Of a stretch of 64,000 nt of DNA, positions 9,335 to 62,667 are shown piece by piece. A program made the position numbers and the translations under genes. A model generated the notes under the pieces. That model made no database searches. It was not told the origin of the DNA and was given only the letters and a program-made list of their open reading frames with translations. Position 1 is the stretch's first letter. The number at the start of each line of letters is the position of its first letter. This DNA is from Aliidongia dinghuensis (lineage in GTDB: Bacteria; Pseudomonadota; Alphaproteobacteria; ATCC43930; CGMCC-115725), in contig NZ_BMJQ01000007.1 in NCBI RefSeq assembly GCF_014643535.1, forward strand, positions 186,001 to 250,000, written 5' to 3'.

Positions 9335-10219
9335 TTACATAGCGCCATCAGGCGGCAGGGTGCCGAGCAGGCTCACGGTCGCGAGCACGGCGAGACCGAG
9401 GGCCTGTTCCAGGAGCACGATCCGGCCGATCGCGGCATAGCGCGCCGCCGGCATCAGGACGAGGCGGTTGGCGAGCGCCGCCGCGATCATGACCGCGACG
9501 AGCACGAGCTTGACCGCAAGCGTGCGGCCCCAGGCGGTCGCGAGCGAGGGGATCGGCGAGCCCGCGATCAGCGTCGCGTTGGCGATGCCGGTGATGACGA
9601 TCGCGCCCACGGTCATGATCCCGACGGTCGAGAATCGGTGCAGCGCCTCGGCGCGGATTTCGGCGGCCGCCACACCGTCTGACCAACGGTCGGCCAGGAG
9701 GCGGGCGAGCGGCACCAGGCCGCCGAGCCAAAGCCCGACAGACAGCAGGTGGATGGCGTGGCAGGCCTGGTGGAGCACGCCGCGCATCCCGGTATCCATC
9801 GCCGCATGGCCGGTGAGGCCGAGGCTGCCGGTCAGCAGGGCGGAGAGGGCGATCAGGAGCCCGTCGCGCGCGGGGCTGCGTTCCAGGGTGACGGCCGGCA
9901 GCAGGGCCGCCGCGAGCAGCAGGCGCCAGAGCCACAGCTTGCCGAAGCCGGTCGAGAAGACGACGGCGCTCAAGGTGCCGGCGTCGGCCGCGGCCGCCCA
10001 ATCGCCGCCGAAATGGGCAGCCTCGACCAGCAGCCAGGCGACGCCGGAGACGAAGACGGCGCCGCTCATGAGCGCTACCGGCCCGTCGAGCCGGGGCGCC
10101 ACGAAAGCACGGGCGGCGCGGCCGGCATAGAGGCCGAACAGCACCGTTCCGAACAGACCGAAGACCGCCCAGAAATGGACGAAGCGGACGGCCAGGAGGG
10201 CGGTCTCCGGCGACGTCAC
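9335..10219 (-). CDS. copD: CopD-family copper homeostasis membrane protein
   Basis: This 294-residue inner-membrane protein matches the CopD family (eight predicted membrane helices), which works with periplasmic CopC in copper uptake or resistance. The family phrases AMDTGMRGVLHQACHAIHLLSVGLWLGGLVPLA and the final-third VVMTVGAIVITGIAN-like helix are recognisable, though individual residues differ. Histidines in the HQACHAIH cluster are candidate metal ligands. It starts at a GTG overlapping the CopC stop codon (GTGA), so the two are translationally coupled. It is the last gene of a four-gene copper operon. Confidence 0.88.
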   Translation of the reverse strand: MTSPETALLAVRFVHFWAVFGLFGTVLFGLYAGRAARAFVAPRLDGPVALMSGAVFVSGVAWLLVEAAHFGGDWAAAADAGTLSAVVFSTGFGKLWLWRLLLAAALLPAVTLERSPARDGLLIALSALLTGSLGLTGHAAMDTGMRGVLHQACHAIHLLSVGLWLGGLVPLARLLADRWSDGVAAAEIRAEALHRFSTVGIMTVGAIVITGIANATLIAGSPIPSLATAWGRTLAVKLVLVAVMIAAALANRLVLMPAARYAAIGRIVLLEQALGLAVLATVSLLGTLPPDGAM

Positions 10220-10608
10220 GGCTGGACCGTGAAGTCGAAGCCGCCCTGGGTCCGATGCGTGTCGACCGACACGACGATCCAGGCGACGTGATAGTGGCCG
10301 GGGGCGAGCGGTGCCGCCGGCTGCAGCACCAGCACCTTGGCGTCGGCCGGGTCGGGTGCCGCCTTCGGTGCGGCCACCGGCTGGCCGTCCGGGCCGGTGA
10401 GCTTGATCGTCGAGAAGGCGGGCTCGAGCGCCTCGCTGAAGCTGAGCCGGATCGCGCTCGGGCTCACGACCGTGCTGCCGGCCGAGGGCGTAGCCGTTTC
10501 AAGCATGGCGTGGGCGAAGGCCGGGCCGGTCGAGGCGAGGAGCAGGCCCAGGACGAAGGCGCCCAGCCGAGTCGAGTGGGGGCGAGTCGAATAGGTGGAA
10601 CGGGTCAT
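10216..10608 (-). CDS. copC: CopC-family periplasmic copper-binding protein
   Basis: This 130-residue protein has a signal peptide ending at AFAHA and a mature domain of the CopC fold, starting HAMLETATPSAGSTV. The N-terminal His of the mature protein and the HRTQGGFDFTV ending, where another His lies, are the usual copper(II) site residues. The start at 10608 is chosen because GAGGAGA sits 7 bases upstream and the signal peptide follows directly. It begins 10 bases after the outer-membrane-protein gene stops and overlaps copD by 4 bases. It would carry copper in the periplasm and pass it to CopD. Confidence 0.93.
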   Translation of the reverse strand: MTRSTYSTRPHSTRLGAFVLGLLLASTGPAFAHAMLETATPSAGSTVVSPSAIRLSFSEALEPAFSTIKLTGPDGQPVAAPKAAPDPADAKVLVLQPAAPLAPGHYHVAWIVVSVDTHRTQGGFDFTVQP

Positions 10609-10618
10609 GGCCGTCTCC

Positions 10619-11560
10619 TCAGAACACAGGCTTGCCGAGCGTCGTCGGCAGCAGGTCGTCGAGATAGAAATGCAGTTGGGCGATGACGCCGGTGCGCGTG
10701 CCGCTCGCCTTGGTCGCCGGGATGAGCGCCTCGACGCCGATCTGATAGGCGCCGCCCTCGTAGAGGACGCCCGGCGCGATCGTGCCGGTCGTGGTGGCGC
10801 CATAGCCATTGGTTGCCGGCGTCGAGTAAGCGAATTCGACGAGCGGGATCAGGTGGTTGACGAATTCCGGCAGGCCATAGTCCTTCACCTGGGCCTGCAG
10901 GTAATGCATGTCGTACTGGACCGAGAACCCGATGTTCCAGAAGTTCGGACTATGGCTCACCCCACCGTCCGGCGCGTGCGCGGTCGGCACGTCGGCGAAC
11001 TGGTAGCCGAGCTCGCCGGTCAGCGCGAACGGCCGCAGCAGGCCGACGCTCGCCGGCAGGTCGCCCATGCCCTTGCCGGCATAGAGCGTCGGCTGGGTCC
11101 AGCCGGTCGCGTCCACACCTAGCCGGAGCGCGCCGGTGCCGCCCCATTCGCGTTGCACCCCGACCGAGGCCAGGATCTCGTGCGTGTCACTCTCGAAGAA
11201 CTGGTACTTGAGCGTCGTCACCAGGTCGTTCCAGCCATAGAGGCTGTTCGCACCCTGCTGGCGGATCACGGAATAGCCGTCGTTGATCGCGACGCCCAGG
11301 TTCTTCGTGATCGTCTTGTCCCACTCGAAGCCGTAGCCGTAGCGGGTGGTCTCAGGGCTGCCGTTGCTGCCGCTCTGTGGCTGATAGGTGAAGGTCGGTG
11401 CCGACAGCTCGTCGCCGACCGCCGGGTCGTCGATGCTGAGAGTGGCCGGGAACAGCCGATCGCCGGCGATGCCGTGGGCATGGGCCGCCGTCGGTCCGGC
11501 GGTAAGGATAGCAAGGCCGGCCCCGAACAGCGGGGTGGCCACGCGAGTAAGGCGCGACAT
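10619..11560 (-). CDS. Predicted outer-membrane protein of a copper cluster
   Basis: This 313-residue protein has a signal peptide ending near AAHAHG. The remainder is made of alternating polar and hydrophobic strands with a C-terminal Phe, consistent with an outer-membrane beta-barrel. The exact family is not recognised. The mature N terminus carries the His pair AHAHG, a possible metal-binding site. It sits between a DUF2946 protein and CopC-CopD on the same strand with short spacing (10 bases to copC), so a role in copper handling at the outer membrane is inferred from context. It could also be a general channel. Confidence 0.72.
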   Translation of the reverse strand: MSRLTRVATPLFGAGLAILTAGPTAAHAHGIAGDRLFPATLSIDDPAVGDELSAPTFTYQPQSGSNGSPETTRYGYGFEWDKTITKNLGVAINDGYSVIRQQGANSLYGWNDLVTTLKYQFFESDTHEILASVGVQREWGGTGALRLGVDATGWTQPTLYAGKGMGDLPASVGLLRPFALTGELGYQFADVPTAHAPDGGVSHSPNFWNIGFSVQYDMHYLQAQVKDYGLPEFVNHLIPLVEFAYSTPATNGYGATTTGTIAPGVLYEGGAYQIGVEALIPATKASGTRTGVIAQLHFYLDDLLPTTLGKPVF

Positions 11561-11615: not shown

Positions 11616-12062
11616 TCAGAGGCTCGTGACCGAAGGCGGCGCGCGGGGCTGGTGGGCGGTGGCGGCGAGGCGGAACGGCCGATCGGCGATCGGCACGGCG
11701 ACGAACGTCGCGGCTTCGACGGTCGGCGCCGGCAGGACGGGCAGGGGCGGCGGCACCAGCCCGCCGGAAGCGTGGAACGCCTGGCACAGCAGGCAATCGC
11801 CGCAATGCTGGCAGGGTGCCTTGTCCGGGCTGGAGTCGGACGCCGGCGAGCCGTCGTCGTCCTGGCACAGGATATAGCCACCGGCGAAGAGCGCCGCATC
11901 CGCCGGCAGGGCCGTCGACGCCGGCATCGGCATCGCCATCGTCGCCTGCGGCGAGAGCGCCAAGCCCTGGCAGAGGAGTGCCAGCAAGGCAAGCAGGAAG
12001 CCGAACCGCCCGATGCGGCCCCGTCCCGTCTCTCCTCGCCGATATCCGCGCCGTCGCGCCAT
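11616..12062 (-). CDS. DUF2946 domain protein
   Basis: This protein of about 148 residues has an N-terminal membrane or signal segment (about residues 17-40) and the cysteine-rich core of DUF2946, CQHCGDCLLCQAF, with a further cysteine just upstream (YILCQDDD). DUF2946 proteins are often found with copper genes, and the cysteine cluster suggests metal binding at the periplasmic face. A GTG lies one codon upstream of the chosen ATG, which has AGGA 8 bases ahead. It is the first gene of the copper operon, and the 55 bases to the next gene leave room for an internal signal. Confidence 0.83.
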   Translation of the reverse strand: MARRRGYRRGETGRGRIGRFGFLLALLALLCQGLALSPQATMAMPMPASTALPADAALFAGGYILCQDDDGSPASDSSPDKAPCQHCGDCLLCQAFHASGGLVPPPLPVLPAPTVEAATFVAVPIADRPFRLAATAHQPRAPPSVTSL

Positions 12063-12126
12063 CACGTCCTGTTCATCCCGCGTGCCGGGTTACCCGGCGG
12101 CCGAACCTTGCCACATGGGACGCTGC

Positions 12127-12559: not shown

Positions 12560-13054
12560 TTATCGAAGCCAGATCGGTTCTCCTTGAAGAGTATCATAGT
12601 CCGACATGGGTCGTTTTTCATCAATTACGAAACGCGGCATGTCTGAAATTATTGTGAGAACCGGTCTGTATTTCCCAAATTTTTTGTAAAACGACTCGGC
12701 GGATTTTGTTGCGTCATCGAGGGCTAGAAAGTACCTGCTGAACAGGTCGGCGAGGTTGGGTTTCGAGATATCCAATTTTGTTGCGCCATAAGGCGGCGTG
12801 ATCGAATTCCAGTCGACATTTTGCGGCGGGATGGCCGCCATGACCGCGCGAATTCGCTCGATGACGAGGGCGGTAGCTTGAAGCTCCTCAAGTCTAACGT
12901 ATCGCCGATAGAGGCGATCGATAAGCGACAAGCTGGCGGGATCGAGGTGGAGGCGCGACGCGGCTATATTTACACATGCGAAGAAGGCTTGCATATCTGC
13001 AGCTGGGCCAAGTTCATGGACCGTATGCCCGCCAAAAAACCCAACGTTTGGCAT
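12560..13054 (-). CDS. Predicted immunity protein for the adjacent nuclease toxin
   Basis: This 164-residue, largely helical protein has no family that I can name. It starts 5 bases after the stop of the portal-toxin fusion; its ribosome site AAGGA overlaps the last codons of that gene, so the two are translated together. A toxin gene followed directly by a small acidic or neutral gene is the usual toxin-immunity order, which is the only ground for the call. Base composition is clearly AT-richer than the chromosome around it. No membrane segment or signal peptide is seen, so it would act in the cytoplasm, where a nuclease toxin would also act. Confidence 0.6.
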   Translation of the reverse strand: MPNVGFFGGHTVHELGPAADMQAFFACVNIAASRLHLDPASLSLIDRLYRRYVRLEELQATALVIERIRAVMAAIPPQNVDWNSITPPYGATKLDISKPNLADLFSRYFLALDDATKSAESFYKKFGKYRPVLTIISDMPRFVIDEKRPMSDYDTLQGEPIWLR

Positions 13055-13059
13055 TGAAT

Positions 13060-14286
13060 CTATTCCTTAAAGCTGATCGATGTGGCGTCGATTATGCCTC
13101 TGGATTTTTGAACTATTTGCTCCACGAGATCGCTGCGTTGTTCTGCCGTGACGCTTTGCCCGCGTATGTCGATGACAATATTTTGGGTGAGCCGATTCGG
13201 CAGATGATTCGCGCGCTCGATCGCTTGGTTCGTGACATTCCTGATCAATGCTGCGGCGTTATTGGTGATATCATAGTTCTTAACCTCGAATGTGCCGATA
13301 TTATCCAGCACGAAATCGACCCTCATGCTACCTGGAGTGCCCCACGGTACCTCGATCCCGCCTTTGAAGCTGACCTGTGCGCGTGCGGTTGGTCCAAGAT
13401 CACGTTCCACATCTATCTCGGATTGGAGCCATGTCGGCCGGAGCAACGAGAACTGTCCGGCGCCGGCTTCGCCCGCCACTCCGACTTCACCAAGTACTCC
13501 GGCGAATTCTCCGACTGCCGCCAGCTCCGGTGAGAACGGCAGCCACGCCAAACCCCCGCCTGGTGCCATGCCGACGGGGCTTTCTGGTCCCATAAGCCAA
13601 GCCAGGTTCCGGAGATTTTGCGCGGTCTCGAAGCCGTTCAGTCCGGTGTCGAGATCGACGGCGCCCATCAATACATCCGTGCAATCGCGACTCGCGCCGG
13701 TCGTTGTCCCTCGGCCGTCTGTGTCGCGCGGCTGGTCCGGATCGAACCCGGCCTTGGCTATGGGCTCAGGTGATGGCGCTCCGGGCAACGGGCTTGCCGG
13801 GGTGGTGGTGGTGAGCGTGTCGCCGCCGGGGACGGGATCGAGGCGGAGCTCGGCCCTGACCTCGTTCCTGGTCTTGATGCCGGCCGCGACGTAAGCGGCC
13901 GCGATCGTCGCCTGCGCCTGCGGCTCGGTCGCCGTTTGGTCGGCCCAGGCGAACTCCAGATCCGGCCAGCCCAAGACCTGGCCCAGGATGCGGTCGATCA
14001 GGCCCTTGACCCAGCCGAGGAGCGGCTGCAGCCCCTCGGCCAAGGCCGCGCCCTGCGCCGTCTCGGCCGTCGCCCGGTTGGTCTGCCGGGCGAACGCGGT
14101 CGGCGGGATCGAGAACGCGAAGCACACGACGCGCGCCAGCCACTCGTCGAACTCGTCCTTCAACGGCACGTCGCGCACCGGCTGGTACTTCAAGCCGCCC
14201 GGCACGAAGCGCGTGTGGCGCCGGGCGGCGAGATTGCCCTCCAGGAGCGCGTCCCAGTATTCCTGGAACTGGCGGATCTGCGGCAT
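13060..14286 (-). CDS. Phage portal C-terminal fragment fused to a predicted PD-(D/E)XK nuclease toxin
   Basis: Residues 1 to about 165 of this 408-residue protein match the C-terminal third of HK97-type portal proteins (phrases LKDEFDEWLARVVCFAFSIP, NRATAETAQ, WPDLEFAWAD, RLDPVPGGD). About 165-300 is a linker with PRDTDGRGT, typical of phage head proteins. The last 110 residues contain Asp324 in VDF, then Glu334-Val-Lys336 in FEVKNYD, the core of a PD-(D/E)XK nuclease. The front is GC-rich and the toxin end AT-rich, with the change near 13540, as expected if the tip was acquired separately. An in-frame stop lies 18 codons upstream and the ribosome site is weak, so the portal part is truncated. 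It may be an active toxin or a decaying remnant. Confidence 0.7.
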   Translation of the reverse strand: MPQIRQFQEYWDALLEGNLAARRHTRFVPGGLKYQPVRDVPLKDEFDEWLARVVCFAFSIPPTAFARQTNRATAETAQGAALAEGLQPLLGWVKGLIDRILGQVLGWPDLEFAWADQTATEPQAQATIAAAYVAAGIKTRNEVRAELRLDPVPGGDTLTTTTPASPLPGAPSPEPIAKAGFDPDQPRDTDGRGTTTGASRDCTDVLMGAVDLDTGLNGFETAQNLRNLAWLMGPESPVGMAPGGGLAWLPFSPELAAVGEFAGVLGEVGVAGEAGAGQFSLLRPTWLQSEIDVERDLGPTARAQVSFKGGIEVPWGTPGSMRVDFVLDNIGTFEVKNYDITNNAAALIRNVTNQAIERANHLPNRLTQNIVIDIRGQSVTAEQRSDLVEQIVQKSRGIIDATSISFKE

Positions 14287-17250: not shown

Positions 17251-17718
17251 ATGATCCTGGGGCTGGCACTGGCGATGGGTGCCGGCGTGTTTCTGCCGTC
17301 GATGCCGGCCCGCGCGGCCGGCGACGACATCACCGGCTGGTGGTTCGATCAGACCAAGCGCGCCGGCATCCTGATCGAGCCCTGCGGCCAGCACCTGTGC
17401 GGCAAGGTCGCCTGGCTGCGCGAACCGCTCAACCCCGACGGCAAGCCCAAGGTCGACGCCAACAATCCGGACGCCAAGCTCAAGACCCGGCCGATCTGCC
17501 AATTGCCGATGATCGGCGGCTTCAACAAGACCGGCCAGGGCGAATGGGAGGACGGCTGGATCTACAATCCCGAGGACGGCGACACCTACAAGTCGCGGAT
17601 GGTCCTCCAGGACGACGGCACGCTGAAGGTCCGCGGCTTCATCGGCGTGCCGTGGCTCGGCAAGAGCCAGGTCTGGACGCGGCCGCCGACGACGCTCACC
17701 GAATGCACGCCGGCGTGA
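17251..17718 (+). CDS. DUF2147 secreted protein
   Basis: This 155-residue protein has a signal peptide (cleavage near ARAAG) and a DUF2147 domain, recognised from ITGWWFDQTKRAGILIEPCG, LCGKVAWLREPLNPDGKP and DGDTYKSRMVLQDD, ending in WTRPP. DUF2147 proteins are periplasmic lipocalin-like proteins of unknown function. Two cysteines in the EPCGQHLCGK region may form a disulfide. It follows the acyl-CoA dehydrogenase by 51 bases on the same strand, but functional linkage is unclear. GGAGG is present upstream at a rather long distance of about 14 bases. Confidence 0.88.
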   Translation: MILGLALAMGAGVFLPSMPARAAGDDITGWWFDQTKRAGILIEPCGQHLCGKVAWLREPLNPDGKPKVDANNPDAKLKTRPICQLPMIGGFNKTGQGEWEDGWIYNPEDGDTYKSRMVLQDDGTLKVRGFIGVPWLGKSQVWTRPPTTLTECTPA

Positions 17719-17902
17719 CTGGCGCTAAAACGCACCCTCCGAGAGAATTGATCGTTGAATTTCCATCTGGACGGGCCATAGACTTGTGTCGTCCGTTGAA
17801 ATTGTGACGGGTGGCCGCCCGGGTTTGGTGATCGAAATCCAACATTTCCGCCGCTGATGACCATTTCGGCCGGACGATCGATGTCCTGACGGAGGCACTA
17901 AC

Positions 17903-19207
17903 ATGCTCTCTGGGGCTCTTGATTGGCTGCTCAAGACAGACGGCTTCCTGCCACATGCGTTCTGCCTGACCGGCAACAGCGCGGTGATCGCGCTCAACAT
18001 CACATCTGATCTTGCGATTGCTGTCGCTTATTTCGCGATTCCCGCATTCCTGGTGCTTCTGGTCCTGCGCCGAAGGGACATCACGCTGCCGAGCACGTTC
18101 CTGCTGTTCTCGGCCTTCATCCTGCTGTGCGGCCTGACCCATGTGATCGAGGCCGCGACGTTCTGGGAGCCCGTCTACGTGCTGCAGGGGACGGTCAAGG
18201 CGGCGACGGCGATCATATCGCTCGTGACCGCCATGACGCTCTGGCCGCTGCTGCCTCGCTTGCTCGGGGCCGTGAGCCCGGTGCAGCTGCACCGGGTCAA
18301 CCTGCGCCTGTCCGAGGAACTGCGCAGCCACGCCCAGACCGAGAGCGAGCTGGTGCGCTTCAATGCCGAGCTCGAGCGGCACGTGATGGAACGGACGGCC
18401 GACCTCACGCGGGCCAATGCCGAGCTCGAAGCCGAGATCGCGGAGAAGCAGAAGATTGCGGCGCAGCTCGCCATCGCCCGCGATCAGGCGGAGGAGGCGA
18501 GCCGGGTGAAATCGCTGTTCCTGGCGGCGATGAGCCACGACCTGCGCACGCCGCTCAACGCGATTATCGGCTTTTCCGAAACCATCCTGTCCGAGTCGTT
18601 CGGGCCGCTCGGCCATGCCCGCTACCTGGGATATATCGAGGACATCCATCGCAGCGGCCATCTGCTGCTGAGCCTCATCAACAACATCCTCGACCTCTCC
18701 AAGATCGAGGCGGGCAAGCGCGAGATCGAGCCCGGGCCGATCGACGGGACGGACATGATCCGCTCCTGCCTCAGGCTCATGAAGTCCGAGATCGAGGAAA
18801 AGCGGATTGCGGTCGAGCTCACCGTGGATCCGGCGGTCGAGATCGAGGCCGATGACCTCGCCTTCCGGCAGGTGCTGCTCAATCTTCTGTCGAATGCCGT
18901 CAAGTTCACGCCGCCCGGCGGGCGGGTCGGCGTCCGGATCGCCGCCGCGTCCGGCGGTGCGGCCGCTGTCGAGGTGGTGGATACGGGCGTCGGCATGACT
19001 GACGAGGGCCTGCGCGGGGCACTCGAGCCGTTCGGCAAGCTCGGCGTCATGACCGCCCGGCGCGAGGGGGCGGGAACGGGGCTGGGTCTCTCGATCGTGA
19101 GGCGCCTGATGGAGCTGCACGGCGGCAGCTTCGCGATCGACAGCGTGCCCGGCCGGGGCACTACCGTCCGGCTCGTCTTCCCGCCGCCGGCCCGCCAAGT
19201 GGCGTGA
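17903..19207 (+). CDS. Histidine kinase with an ethylene-receptor-like membrane domain
   Basis: This 434-residue sensor kinase has three N-terminal membrane helices (about residues 30-120), a coiled coil (130-200), a HisKA domain with His212 in MSHDLRTPLN and an HATPase domain with DTGVGM and GTGLGLSIVRRL. The membrane part aligns without gaps to plant ETR1 over its first two helices: Asp36, Tyr43, Ile46, Pro47, Ile73, Cys76 and His80 match ETR1 Asp25, Tyr32, Ile35, Pro36, Ile62, Cys65 and His69, reported as needed for copper-dependent ethylene binding. Ethylene sensing is therefore a good inference, not a proof. No GAF domain and no adjacent response regulator are present. GGAGG 9 bases ahead supports the start. 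Confidence 0.92.
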   Translation: MLSGALDWLLKTDGFLPHAFCLTGNSAVIALNITSDLAIAVAYFAIPAFLVLLVLRRRDITLPSTFLLFSAFILLCGLTHVIEAATFWEPVYVLQGTVKAATAIISLVTAMTLWPLLPRLLGAVSPVQLHRVNLRLSEELRSHAQTESELVRFNAELERHVMERTADLTRANAELEAEIAEKQKIAAQLAIARDQAEEASRVKSLFLAAMSHDLRTPLNAIIGFSETILSESFGPLGHARYLGYIEDIHRSGHLLLSLINNILDLSKIEAGKREIEPGPIDGTDMIRSCLRLMKSEIEEKRIAVELTVDPAVEIEADDLAFRQVLLNLLSNAVKFTPPGGRVGVRIAAASGGAAAVEVVDTGVGMTDEGLRGALEPFGKLGVMTARREGAGTGLGLSIVRRLMELHGGSFAIDSVPGRGTTVRLVFPPPARQVA

Positions 19208-29177: not shown

Positions 29178-31163
29178 GTGTCGTCCTTGCCGCGCGCCGA
29201 AGAAAAGCCGCTGAGGGCACCGGCCGAGCCGGTGGCCGCCGCCGCCGAATCGCTGGACAGGCTCGATGCGGCGTGCCGGGACGTGCTCGATCTGGTCGGG
29301 CTCGATTTCCTCGCGCGCGGCGGCGCCATCCTCGTGACCGATCCCATGGGCCGCGTGCTATGGAGCAACCTCGCCTGGCGTGACCTGGCCCAGCGCCTGG
29401 TACCGCGGGCAGACGCCGCCGTGCTGCCACCCTGGCCGCTCGCCGAGGTGATCCGCGGGCTCGCGCGTGGGATCACCCATCTGCGTGAGGATGCGATCGA
29501 AACCGCGACCGGTCGCGAGACGATCTGTTCCGAGCATTGGGGTGCCTTCCGCGCCGACGGCACGCTCGTCGGCATCGCTTCCGCGGTCAGCGAATCGTCC
29601 CTGACCGGCCGGCTGAAGCAACAGCTGGCCGCGGCGGAAGACCGGCTCGACGACGTCGCCCGGCTCGTGTCCGATTGGATCTGGGAGACCGGGCCGGATC
29701 TGGTGCTGACCGCCGTCTCCTCGCGGGTCAACGAGCTCCTGGGCTTTCATCCGCGCGAACTCATCGGCCGGCATCTGCTCGATCTCGGCCGGTTCGTCGA
29801 CGACCAGGGCGAGCCGGCGCTGAGCCCGCTCGAGGCGCTGCAGCCGCGACCATTTCGCGACAAGCCGTTCCTGATGCGCCATGCGAACGGGTCCGAACGT
29901 CATTGCCGGATGGCCGGGCTGCCGGTGTTCGATCCCGAGACCGGCCGGTTCCACGGTTTCCGCGGGACGAACCGCGACGTGACGGCGGAAGCGATGGCGC
30001 TCGGCATGGTGGCACAGTCGCGCACCCAGCTGACCCAGGCGATCGACAGCATCTCGGACGGCTTCGCGCTGTTCGACAACAACGAGCGGCTGCTGCTGTG
30101 CAATCAGCGCTTTCTCGCCATGTATCCGCGGAGCGCCAAGCGCATCCATGTCGGCGAGACGTTCCGGACCATCGTCGAGACCTCGTTCGAATGCGGCGAC
30201 CTGGCCGACAGCGATGCGGCCCGCCGGCTCATGGCGATCACGCTGACCGACCGGGCCCGGGCGCTTGGCTCGATCGAGTACGAGCTGGCGGACGGGCGCT
30301 GGATCCGGGCGACCGATCGCATGACCGGCGACGGATCGATCGTCAGCATCCGCACCGACATCACGGAGCTGAAGCGGCGTGAGCACGCGCTGTTCGAGGC
30401 GAAGGAGGTGGCCGAGAGCGCCAACCGCGCCAAGTCGGAATTCCTCGCCAATATCAGCCACGAGCTCCGCACCCCGCTGAACGCGATCATCGGCTTTTCC
30501 GAGCTGATCATCGCCGAGACCATGGGGCCGATCGCCAAGCCCTATAAGGAATATCTGCAGGACGTCCTGAACAGCGGGCGCCATCTGCTCGAGGTCATCA
30601 ACGACATCCTCGATCTCGCCAAGGCCGAGGCGGGCCAGCTCGACCTCAACGAAGAAGCGCTGGACCTGAAGAGCCTCATCGACGGCGTCGTGCGCCTGAT
30701 GCGTGAGCGCGCGATGCGCAATGGCCTGCGCCTTTCCACGACCGTGGCGCCCGGCCTGCCGCCGTTCCGGGCGGATCCGCGCAAGCTCCGGCAGATCCTG
30801 CTCAACCTGATCTCGAACGCGGTCAAGTTCACGCCGGCCGGCGGCTCCGTCGATGTCGACGCCGTCTGCACGGCGGACGGCGACCTGCGCCTCAGCGTGA
30901 TCGATACCGGCATCGGCATCGCGTCCGAGGATATCGCGGTCGCCTTGAAGCCGTTCGGCCAGGTCGACGGCACTCTGAGCCGCAAGTACGAGGGCACGGG
31001 CCTGGGATTGCCGCTGACCCGCGCCATGGTCGAGCTGCACAACGGCGAGATCCGGATCGAGAGCGAGCTCGACCGCGGCACGACCGTCACAATCCTGCTG
31101 CCGGCCGAGCGTTTCGATCTGTGGGACGATGGGGCGGCCGTGGAGCCGCCCCTATCCGGTTAG
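29178..31163 (+). CDS. PAS-domain sensor histidine kinase
   Basis: This 661-residue soluble-looking kinase has about three PAS-type domains (roughly residues 45-145, 160-270 and 275-395). They are followed by HisKA with FLANISHELRTPLNAIIGFSEL and HATPase with NLISNAVKFTPAGG, DTGIGI and GTGLGLPLTRAMVE. No membrane helices are evident, so it senses a cytoplasmic signal such as redox state or a ligand. The start is a GTG preceded by GAGGGG. There is no linked response regulator. It follows the DUF2336 gene by 18 bases. The PleC/DivJ-like kinase core is typical of alphaproteobacteria. Confidence 0.93.
   Translation: MSSLPRAEEKPLRAPAEPVAAAAESLDRLDAACRDVLDLVGLDFLARGGAILVTDPMGRVLWSNLAWRDLAQRLVPRADAAVLPPWPLAEVIRGLARGITHLREDAIETATGRETICSEHWGAFRADGTLVGIASAVSESSLTGRLKQQLAAAEDRLDDVARLVSDWIWETGPDLVLTAVSSRVNELLGFHPRELIGRHLLDLGRFVDDQGEPALSPLEALQPRPFRDKPFLMRHANGSERHCRMAGLPVFDPETGRFHGFRGTNRDVTAEAMALGMVAQSRTQLTQAIDSISDGFALFDNNERLLLCNQRFLAMYPRSAKRIHVGETFRTIVETSFECGDLADSDAARRLMAITLTDRARALGSIEYELADGRWIRATDRMTGDGSIVSIRTDITELKRREHALFEAKEVAESANRAKSEFLANISHELRTPLNAIIGFSELIIAETMGPIAKPYKEYLQDVLNSGRHLLEVINDILDLAKAEAGQLDLNEEALDLKSLIDGVVRLMRERAMRNGLRLSTTVAPGLPPFRADPRKLRQILLNLISNAVKFTPAGGSVDVDAVCTADGDLRLSVIDTGIGIASEDIAVALKPFGQVDGTLSRKYEGTGLGLPLTRAMVELHNGEIRIESELDRGTTVTILLPAERFDLWDDGAAVEPPLSG
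31131..31152. terminator. Hairpin at the end of the PAS kinase gene
   Basis: GGGGCGGC (31131-31138) and GCCGCCCC (31145-31152) form a perfect 8-bp GC-rich stem with a 6-base loop, inside the last codons of the PAS kinase gene and just before the convergent pgk stop. No clear T-run follows on the plus strand, so termination is only a possibility. Confidence 0.35.
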
Positions 31164-48170: not shown

Positions 48171-49379
48171 TTAGACGGCTTTGCGGATCGGCTCGGCCGG
48201 CAAGACCCGGCCGGCCGGCAGCAGCACGGTTACGGTCGTGCCAGTGTTGGGCCAGCTGCGGACGCCGATCGTGCCGCCGTGCAGCTCGACGAAGCTGCGG
48301 GCGAGCGGCAGGCCCAGGCCGGTGCCGGCATGGTGGCGGGACAGCGAGTTGTCGACCTGGGTGAAGGGCTCGAAGATCCGGTCGAGATCGGTCTCGGCGA
48401 TGCCGATGCCGCTGTCCGCGACGGCCAGCTCGAGCTCACTATCGGCCTTGAGCGCCGCGGAGACGATCACCCGCCCGCCGGACGGCGTGAACTTGACCGC
48501 GTTCGAGACGAGGTTCAGCAGCACCTGCTTCAGCTTGGTCTCGTCGGCCCAAAGCTCGATATCCTCGCGGGGCAGGCGCGTCTCGAGTGCGACGCCGGCC
48601 GCACGCGCCCGCTCGCGGAAGAAGCGCTCGACGGAGATCAGCAGGGCCGTCGCCGACATCCGGTCCTCGCGCAGCTCCGTCTTGCCGGCCGACGCCTTGG
48701 TGAGGTCGAGGATGTCGTTGATGACGTCGAGCAGGAAGCGGCCGCTCGTCGCGATGTCCGCCGCGTAATCCTTGTAGCGGCGCCAGGCACCCTCGCCGGA
48801 GCCGAACATCTCGCTCTGAATGATGTCGGCGAAGCCGATCACCGCGTTGAGCGGCGTCCTGAGCTCATGGCTCATGTTGGCGAGGAACTGCGACTTGGCC
48901 GCGTCGGCCCGGACCGCCTCGGCCCGCGCCGCCTCGAGTTCGAGCCCGCGCTGCCGGCTTTCCTCGACCTGCAGGCGCAGGATCTCGAGTACCGAGCCCA
49001 TGCCGATGAAACGGCCGTTCTCGGCGATGATGAAGCCGCTCATGAGCGCCGACGGCTTGTCGCGGCCGATCCGTTCCGACAGCTCGCTGATGCTGGTGTC
49101 GGGATCGACGATCAGCGGTGCCCGATCCATCAGGAGCGCGATGGGGCGCCGCTCGTAGACGTCGCGTACGACCGGCCGGGCGAAGGTCGAGAGCAGGCTG
49201 TGGCGATCGATCGAGCCCGCGATCTGGTCGCCGTCGATGATCGCGAGGCCCGGCAGCTCGGGGTCGGCCGCAAACAGGGCATAAGCGTCGCCACAGCTCG
49301 CCGACGGCGGCAGCACGCGCGTGTGCAGCGTCAGAAGATTGGCCCGCCAAGGGGCGTTTGCGGGAGGCAGGACGGCCAT
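48171..49379 (-). CDS. CBS-domain sensor histidine kinase
   Basis: This 402-residue kinase starts with a pair of CBS-like modules (about residues 10-135) showing PIALLMDRAPLIVDPDTSISEL and FIIAENGRFIGMGSVLEIL. A short coiled coil (136-160) leads to HisKA with FLANMSHELRTPLNAVIGFADI and an HATPase domain with NAVKFTPSGG and GTGLGLPLARSFVELHGG. No membrane helix is present, so it is probably cytoplasmic. CBS pairs often bind adenosyl ligands, which suggests energy or cAMP-type sensing. No response regulator is adjacent. Confidence 0.9.
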   Translation of the reverse strand: MAVLPPANAPWRANLLTLHTRVLPPSASCGDAYALFAADPELPGLAIIDGDQIAGSIDRHSLLSTFARPVVRDVYERRPIALLMDRAPLIVDPDTSISELSERIGRDKPSALMSGFIIAENGRFIGMGSVLEILRLQVEESRQRGLELEAARAEAVRADAAKSQFLANMSHELRTPLNAVIGFADIIQSEMFGSGEGAWRRYKDYAADIATSGRFLLDVINDILDLTKASAGKTELREDRMSATALLISVERFFRERARAAGVALETRLPREDIELWADETKLKQVLLNLVSNAVKFTPSGGRVIVSAALKADSELELAVADSGIGIAETDLDRIFEPFTQVDNSLSRHHAGTGLGLPLARSFVELHGGTIGVRSWPNTGTTVTVLLPAGRVLPAEPIRKAV

Positions 49380-62322: not shown

Positions 62323-62667
62323 ATGAAATCACCTGATATCCGCAGCTACTACGAACTTCTTGAAGCGCTGGCGAAGCGTCGAGAACAGAAGAGGGCTCGG
62401 ACTCTATTTCGGGTTCGGACTCAATCTTCGGGCTGGGCGTCGTTTCTCGGGGATCGTTGGCGGAAGCGCCTGGCGGTGGCGTTGATCGAAAGCTTTTGGG
62501 AGGGCTGCGTCCTCTACGCCGCGGCCCAGAATCCGGGGCTTTGGTTCGCCAACGAGGACGAAGCGCCATCAGCGCACCCACCGCAAAGCCCCGAACCACG
62601 ACGGGTCAGGCGTCGTGCTCCAGACGCGTGTCGCAGACCGCCGCGACCGCCGCGAAGGCGGCATTGA
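62323..62667 (+). CDS. Hypothetical protein, uncertain
   Basis: This 114-residue frame starts MKSPDIRSYYELLEALAKRREQKRARTLF and continues to a proline/arginine-rich tail. The first 80 residues read like a plausible helical protein with a single weakly hydrophobic segment (ALIESFWEGCVLYAAAQ), but the tail lies over the end of the convergent response-regulator gene. GGGAAG precedes the ATG; an in-frame ATG at 62305 is an alternative. No family is recognised. Confidence 0.4.
   Translation: MKSPDIRSYYELLEALAKRREQKRARTLFRVRTQSSGWASFLGDRWRKRLAVALIESFWEGCVLYAAAQNPGLWFANEDEAPSAHPPQSPEPRRVRRRAPDACRRPPRPPRRRH

Follow-up and report, generated by a model that had tools for sequence, protein, structure and literature searches.

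The window analysed here, a stretch of 64,000 nucleotides from the soil-type alphaproteobacterium Aliidongia dinghuensis, contains an open reading frame of 434 amino acids at positions 17903-19207 on the forward strand that starts with the ATG at 17903. It encodes a sensor histidine kinase whose N-terminal domain belongs to the ETR1_N type found in ethylene receptors. The gene and its immediate surroundings comprise the following features.

17251..17718, + strand: gene of the DUF2147 family (Pfam), about 185 nucleotides upstream of the kinase gene
17890..17902, + strand: ribosome-binding site GGAGG (17891-17895), 7 nucleotides before the ATG, read from the sequence
17903..19207, + strand: orphan sensor histidine kinase of the ETR1_N type, 434 amino acids (open reading frame, Pfam, syntenic ortholog L123)
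17951..17965, + strand: N-terminal PHxxC (Pro17, His18, Ala19, Phe20, Cys21), proposed copper-loading or auxiliary site (family conservation; coupling of His18 with Cys76)
18008..18010, + strand: Asp36 (ETR1 D25), at the start of the predicted first membrane helix, TM1 (alignment)
18008..18241, + strand: three predicted membrane helices, residues 36-57, 64-88 and 91-113 in the model (hydropathy; low-confidence AlphaFold2 model)
18128..18142, + strand: Cys76 to His80 (ETR1 C65 and H69), putative Cu(I) ligands in predicted TM2 (alignment; PMC6586836)
18242..18508, + strand: linker, residues 114-202 approximately, partly coiled-coil-like (weak Pfam coiled-coil matches below cut-off)
18509..19186, + strand: HisKA (residues 203-271, phospho-acceptor His212) and HATPase_c (residues 317-428) (Pfam)

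Downstream, on the opposite strand, lie a gene resembling glycine-zipper outer-membrane antigens and a gene resembling quinone oxidoreductases.

The ETR1_N domain (PF25487) is matched at residues 28-121 with 114.9 bits (E 2.1e-33) against a cut-off of 27, and HisKA and HATPase_c also score over their cut-offs. The kinase output is thus intact, with His212 located in the sequence SHDLRTPL. A Pfam scan of the whole protein gave no GAF, PAS or receiver domain over cut-off, nor any signalling domain in the linker. Because nothing else exceeds its cut-off, we describe the protein as an ETR1_N domain, a linker and a kinase core; an earlier note on this DNA had likewise described an intact core with His212 and no GAF domain. 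Pfam, hydropathy and an AlphaFold2 model agree that the N-terminus forms a three-helix ETR1_N domain. The model was made from a single sequence of this domain alone and has low confidence (pLDDT 65, pTM 0.37), and for this reason it was used for helix positions only. Neither single-sequence nor profile searches matched the ETR1_N domain to any sequence of a solved structure in the PDB.

The seven residues associated with ethylene binding in ETR1 are all present. Asp36, Tyr43, Ile46, Pro47, Ile73, Cys76 and His80 correspond to ETR1 D25, Y32, I35, P36, I62, C65 and H69 at an offset of 11 throughout, and Lys99 aligns with K91 at an offset of 8. Compared without gaps over ETR1 residues 23-70, offset 11 scores 93 BLOSUM units with 20 of 48 positions identical, and the next best offset scores -1. 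This wide separation from every other offset establishes that the gapless alignment at constant offset 11 put forward in the earlier note is correct. The gapped local score against AtETR1 is 146, with 37 of 85 positions identical, compared with 33 +/- 6 and a maximum of 62 for shuffled sequences (n=1000). The numbering of the AtETR1 sequence used was checked at eight positions. A study of ETR1 (PMC6586836) names C65 and H69 as putative copper ligands and reports infrequent contacts to D25 in simulations.

This residue set is the ordinary state of the family, being complete in 114 of the 187 bacterial ETR1_N domains that we aligned, and is therefore evidence of membership and not of rarity. In surveys that are samples, not censuses, ETR1_N was found in 27 of 385 alphaproteobacterial genomes (about 7%), in 29 of 398 genomes of the phylum, and in 68 of 296 and 49 of 197 genomes of two families (23-25%); none of 14 control genomes contained it. 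These frequencies make the finding less unusual than the earlier note had implied. When the full-length window protein was compared with genome contigs, 79 loci were matched by the kinase core, none of which carries ETR1_N. The window also encodes histidine kinases at 30426-31103 (+) and 48216-48899 (-), whose cores are 46% and 44% identical, respectively, to that of the window kinase. Among the loci examined, the ETR1_N input domain is joined to at least four types of kinase core (SHDLRTPL, AHDFNN, SHDLxEPL and HWE/HisKA_2). We also observed a group of ETR1_N proteins of about 220-260 amino acids (L265, L272, L263, L269-L271, L273, L274, L280 and similar) that have no N-terminal PHGxC sequence and carry Gly, Glu or Asn at the position of ETR1 Lys91; the two members checked (among L265, L272 and similar) contain a partial HisKA_2 domain.

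A syntenic ortholog (L123) is present in a genus-mate, G001. It is 74% identical to the window kinase overall and 70% identical within the ETR1_N domain, yet retains all seven residues and the equivalent of Lys99. The downstream gene order QOR-HCDH-SDR-dapF-mtaB-ftsY is common to both species; the synteny covers this side, since the contig of L123 ends upstream of the gene. The dN/dS ratio of the ethylene-binding domain is about 0.25 (dN 0.234, dS 0.951), which places the domain under constraint, and that of the kinase part is about 0.24.

The window genome encodes a second ETR1_N protein, the 779-residue hybrid kinase L121 (L121:7797-10136, on G000:C17), with the layout ETR1_N-PAS-PAS-HisKA-HATPase-REC. 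Its copper Cys is replaced by Gly (GGC), whereas the ortholog in the sister species (L122, 84% identical) is intact and has TGC at this codon. A further, short paralog in G001 (L124) also has Gly at this position, so that two gene lineages of one genus have each lost the copper Cys in one copy. As judged from sequence, the loss in L121 probably leaves the window kinase as the sole functional ethylene receptor of its genome.

A second conserved element precedes TM1. Most family members carry PHGxC(L/F)xW at this point, and the window kinase has PHAFCLTG, in which Gly replaces the family Trp throughout the window lineage and, in the window protein, Ala19 stands in place of the motif Gly; given these two changes its ethylene affinity could differ. 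Both cyanobacterial domains examined (L205, L206) have the motif and AtETR1 does not. Its His is lost in both of the Cys-less paralogs, being Arg in L121 and Leu in L124. Among the 187 domains, which include related sequences, the copper Cys is present in all 141 that have the motif His and absent from 19 of the 28 aligned domains that do not; in some low-scoring rows of this alignment, for example L207, the N-terminus is misaligned. A tree from which the tested columns were left out has at least nine changes of the copper Cys, and in four well-supported independent pairs the motif His follows the Cys in 3.9 on average over pairings, compared with 1.6 for Cys21, 1.3 for Asp36 and 0.3 for His80. 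Four pairs are too few for significance (p 0.125), and we therefore treat the coupling of His18 and Cys76 as a lead.

Since the motif His never occurs without the copper Cys, the comparison suggests a copper-loading role for the motif. A more far-reaching proposal, which we offer tentatively and consider rather less probable than its alternatives, is that bacterial ethylene-binding domains need this N-terminal HxxC as an eighth element, either for copper loading or as the site of a third ligand, and that its His is lost along with the Cys. Under the same tentative proposal, the metal-blind L121, maintained beside an intact receptor, would be a natural counterpart of the ethylene-insensitive receptors of plants. 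The motif is not named in the portions of the literature that we searched, which is no proof that it is undescribed, and according to a 2026 review (PMC13012798) it is still unsettled which residues make contact when copper is handed over.

Bacterial receptors of the ETR1 type are already known, and the window kinase adds a member with minimal architecture from outside Azospirillum. In a report on AzoEtr1 of Azospirillum brasilense (PMC11819568), this protein bound ethylene both in yeast and in cells and controlled root colonisation as well as biofilm formation. The mutant was not rescued by versions carrying D35A or C75A, and lowered autophosphorylation was predicted for the protein. We recovered AzoEtr1 as locus L118. 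It shares with the window kinase the N-terminal ETR1_N domain, the same seven residues and Lys, a histidine kinase and the PHGxC motif (PHAFC in the window protein). However, AzoEtr1 has 525 amino acids, a PAS domain, a kinase core of the AHEMSQPL type and an adjacent single-domain response regulator, whereas the window kinase has 434 amino acids, the SHDLRTPL core, no PAS domain and no neighbouring regulator, and thus does not form a two-component pair of the AzoEtr1 kind. The two proteins are 36% identical over residues 4-157, and an uncharacterised branch is closer than AzoEtr1 to the ethylene-binding domain of the window kinase. Because ETR1_N sits on several types of kinase core, the output of AzoEtr1 cannot be transferred to the window kinase.

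Plant receptors share the seven residues, the Lys91 equivalent and the domain identity given above. In contrast to AtETR1, the window kinase has no receiver domain and no Cys4/Cys6 disulfide pair, with PHxxC occurring instead, and the GAF domain that follows the membrane helices in the ETR1 family proper is missing. SynEtr1 of Synechocystis, compared by description only (PMC11819568), is also a bacterial receptor kinase with measured ethylene binding that signals by phosphorelay; it differs in being cyanobacterial, in acting as a light receptor as well and in having a known downstream regulator. L132, an uncharacterised kinase from an alphaproteobacterium of another family (G056), matches over the full length with 38% identity and has the same minimal ETR1_N-HisKA-HATPase_c arrangement. 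Unlike the window kinase, it is followed after 151 bp by a receiver-domain gene.

From its sequence and by analogy with these proteins, we consider it likely that the window gene encodes an ethylene-responsive orphan sensor histidine kinase that is membrane-bound and belongs with the bacterial ethylene receptors. The protein would work as a membrane dimer that binds Cu(I) through Cys76 and His80, close to Asp36. Ethylene arriving from the membrane would bind this copper and alter kinase activity, the linker helices relaying the change to the kinase core. The analogy with ETR1, SynEtr1 and AzoEtr1 suggests that ethylene probably lowers autophosphorylation at His212; the recipient of the signal would be a response regulator whose gene lies elsewhere in the genome.

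It is unlikely that the fold has been kept for another small hydrophobic ligand or signal, such as another alkene, redox state or light, or as part of a ligand-independent kinase. The dual specificity of SynEtr1 for light and ethylene (PMC11819568) would fit such a change, as would the divergence of the N-terminal motif in the window lineage and the retention in this genus of L121 and L124 after loss of the Cys. Against this, the seven residues and Lys99 have been kept in both the window kinase and L123 despite the divergence of their domains.

The earlier note had also counted a copper operon about 6 kb upstream in favour of an ethylene sensor. The genes are real, and consist of:

9335-10219, - strand: CopD (Pfam)
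10216-10809, - strand: CopC (Pfam)
11616-12065, - strand: DUF2946 (Pfam)

They lie 5.8 kb from the kinase gene on the opposite strand and belong to another transcription unit; between them and the kinase are a phage-portal/toxin-like gene, an APH-type kinase, an acyl-CoA dehydrogenase and the DUF2147 gene. The region 12560-14286 (-) encodes a 408-residue protein that contains the C-terminal portion of a phage portal protein (Pfam Phage_portal, 54 bits), and by eye its unmatched C-terminus has an FEVKNY stretch resembling a PD-(D/E)xK nuclease. The adjacent gene encodes 164 amino acids with a weak match to Imm70 (E 0.012), and the pair is possibly a portal-fused toxin with its immunity gene. 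A search of 40 other ETR1_N loci found neither a CopC nor a CopD homolog in their vicinity. We therefore rejected a link between the copper operon and the window kinase, and with the opposite strand and the distance taken into account, the proximity looks like coincidence and loses its value as evidence.

These observations also bear on the proposal of a copper sensor, in which membrane or periplasmic Cu(I) would be detected at the Cys/His site and the kinase would control copper tolerance. Cys76 and His80 do correspond to the copper ligands of ETR1, and the copper genes are nearby. However, this role is improbable given the opposite strand of those genes, the unrelated genes in between and the absence of CopC and CopD from the other loci, and given that Asp36, Tyr43, Ile46, Pro47 and Ile73, which are needed for ethylene binding beyond the copper ligands, are kept as well. 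In addition, the characterised relatives respond to ethylene (PMC11819568).

The search for a cognate response regulator suggested in the earlier note yielded no recognisable candidate near the window kinase or its ortholog. The only receiver-domain gene found in the window begins at 62606 (-), 43 kb downstream, and there is none in the 10.5 kb following L123. We name no candidate, because the regulators beside other ETR1_N kinases mostly serve different kinase-core types. That the gene is degenerating, its kinase no longer signalling for want of a partner, is scarcely credible: it is an orphan in both species, but its frame and kinase domains are intact, the dN/dS of the kinase part is that given above, a ribosome-binding site is present, and orphan kinases are common in Alphaproteobacteria.

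Another gene of this bacterium is compatible with plant association. The window genome encodes one ACC deaminase (L199, G000:C1:549195-550196), which scores 562.5 bits against a curated cut-off of 392 and has YEGKS and HLGG residues that we take to be those of true AcdS. The sister species G001 encodes this enzyme as well. Across the sample, ACC deaminase occurs in 4 of 27 genomes with ETR1_N and 18 of 358 others (one-sided Fisher p 0.06, or 0.38 without the genus of the window), and we rejected a pairing of receptor and enzyme as a rule in the class. Nitrogen fixation by the host was similarly rejected, as no nifH scored over cut-off in the window genome. Because the host encodes ACC deaminase, the likely source of the ligand would be plant or soil ethylene, and an association of the host with plants is plausible. 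The plant-associated ethylene sensor envisaged in the earlier note thus stands as a probable sensor by analogy with AzoEtr1 and SynEtr1, and its plant association as compatible with the ACC deaminase, without the copper operon.

The coupling of His and Cys makes the copper route to the receptor accessible to mutagenesis of the N-terminal motif. With a receptor kinase and an ACC deaminase encoded in the same genome, a single bacterium may be able to detect ethylene and also to reduce the level of its precursor in plants.
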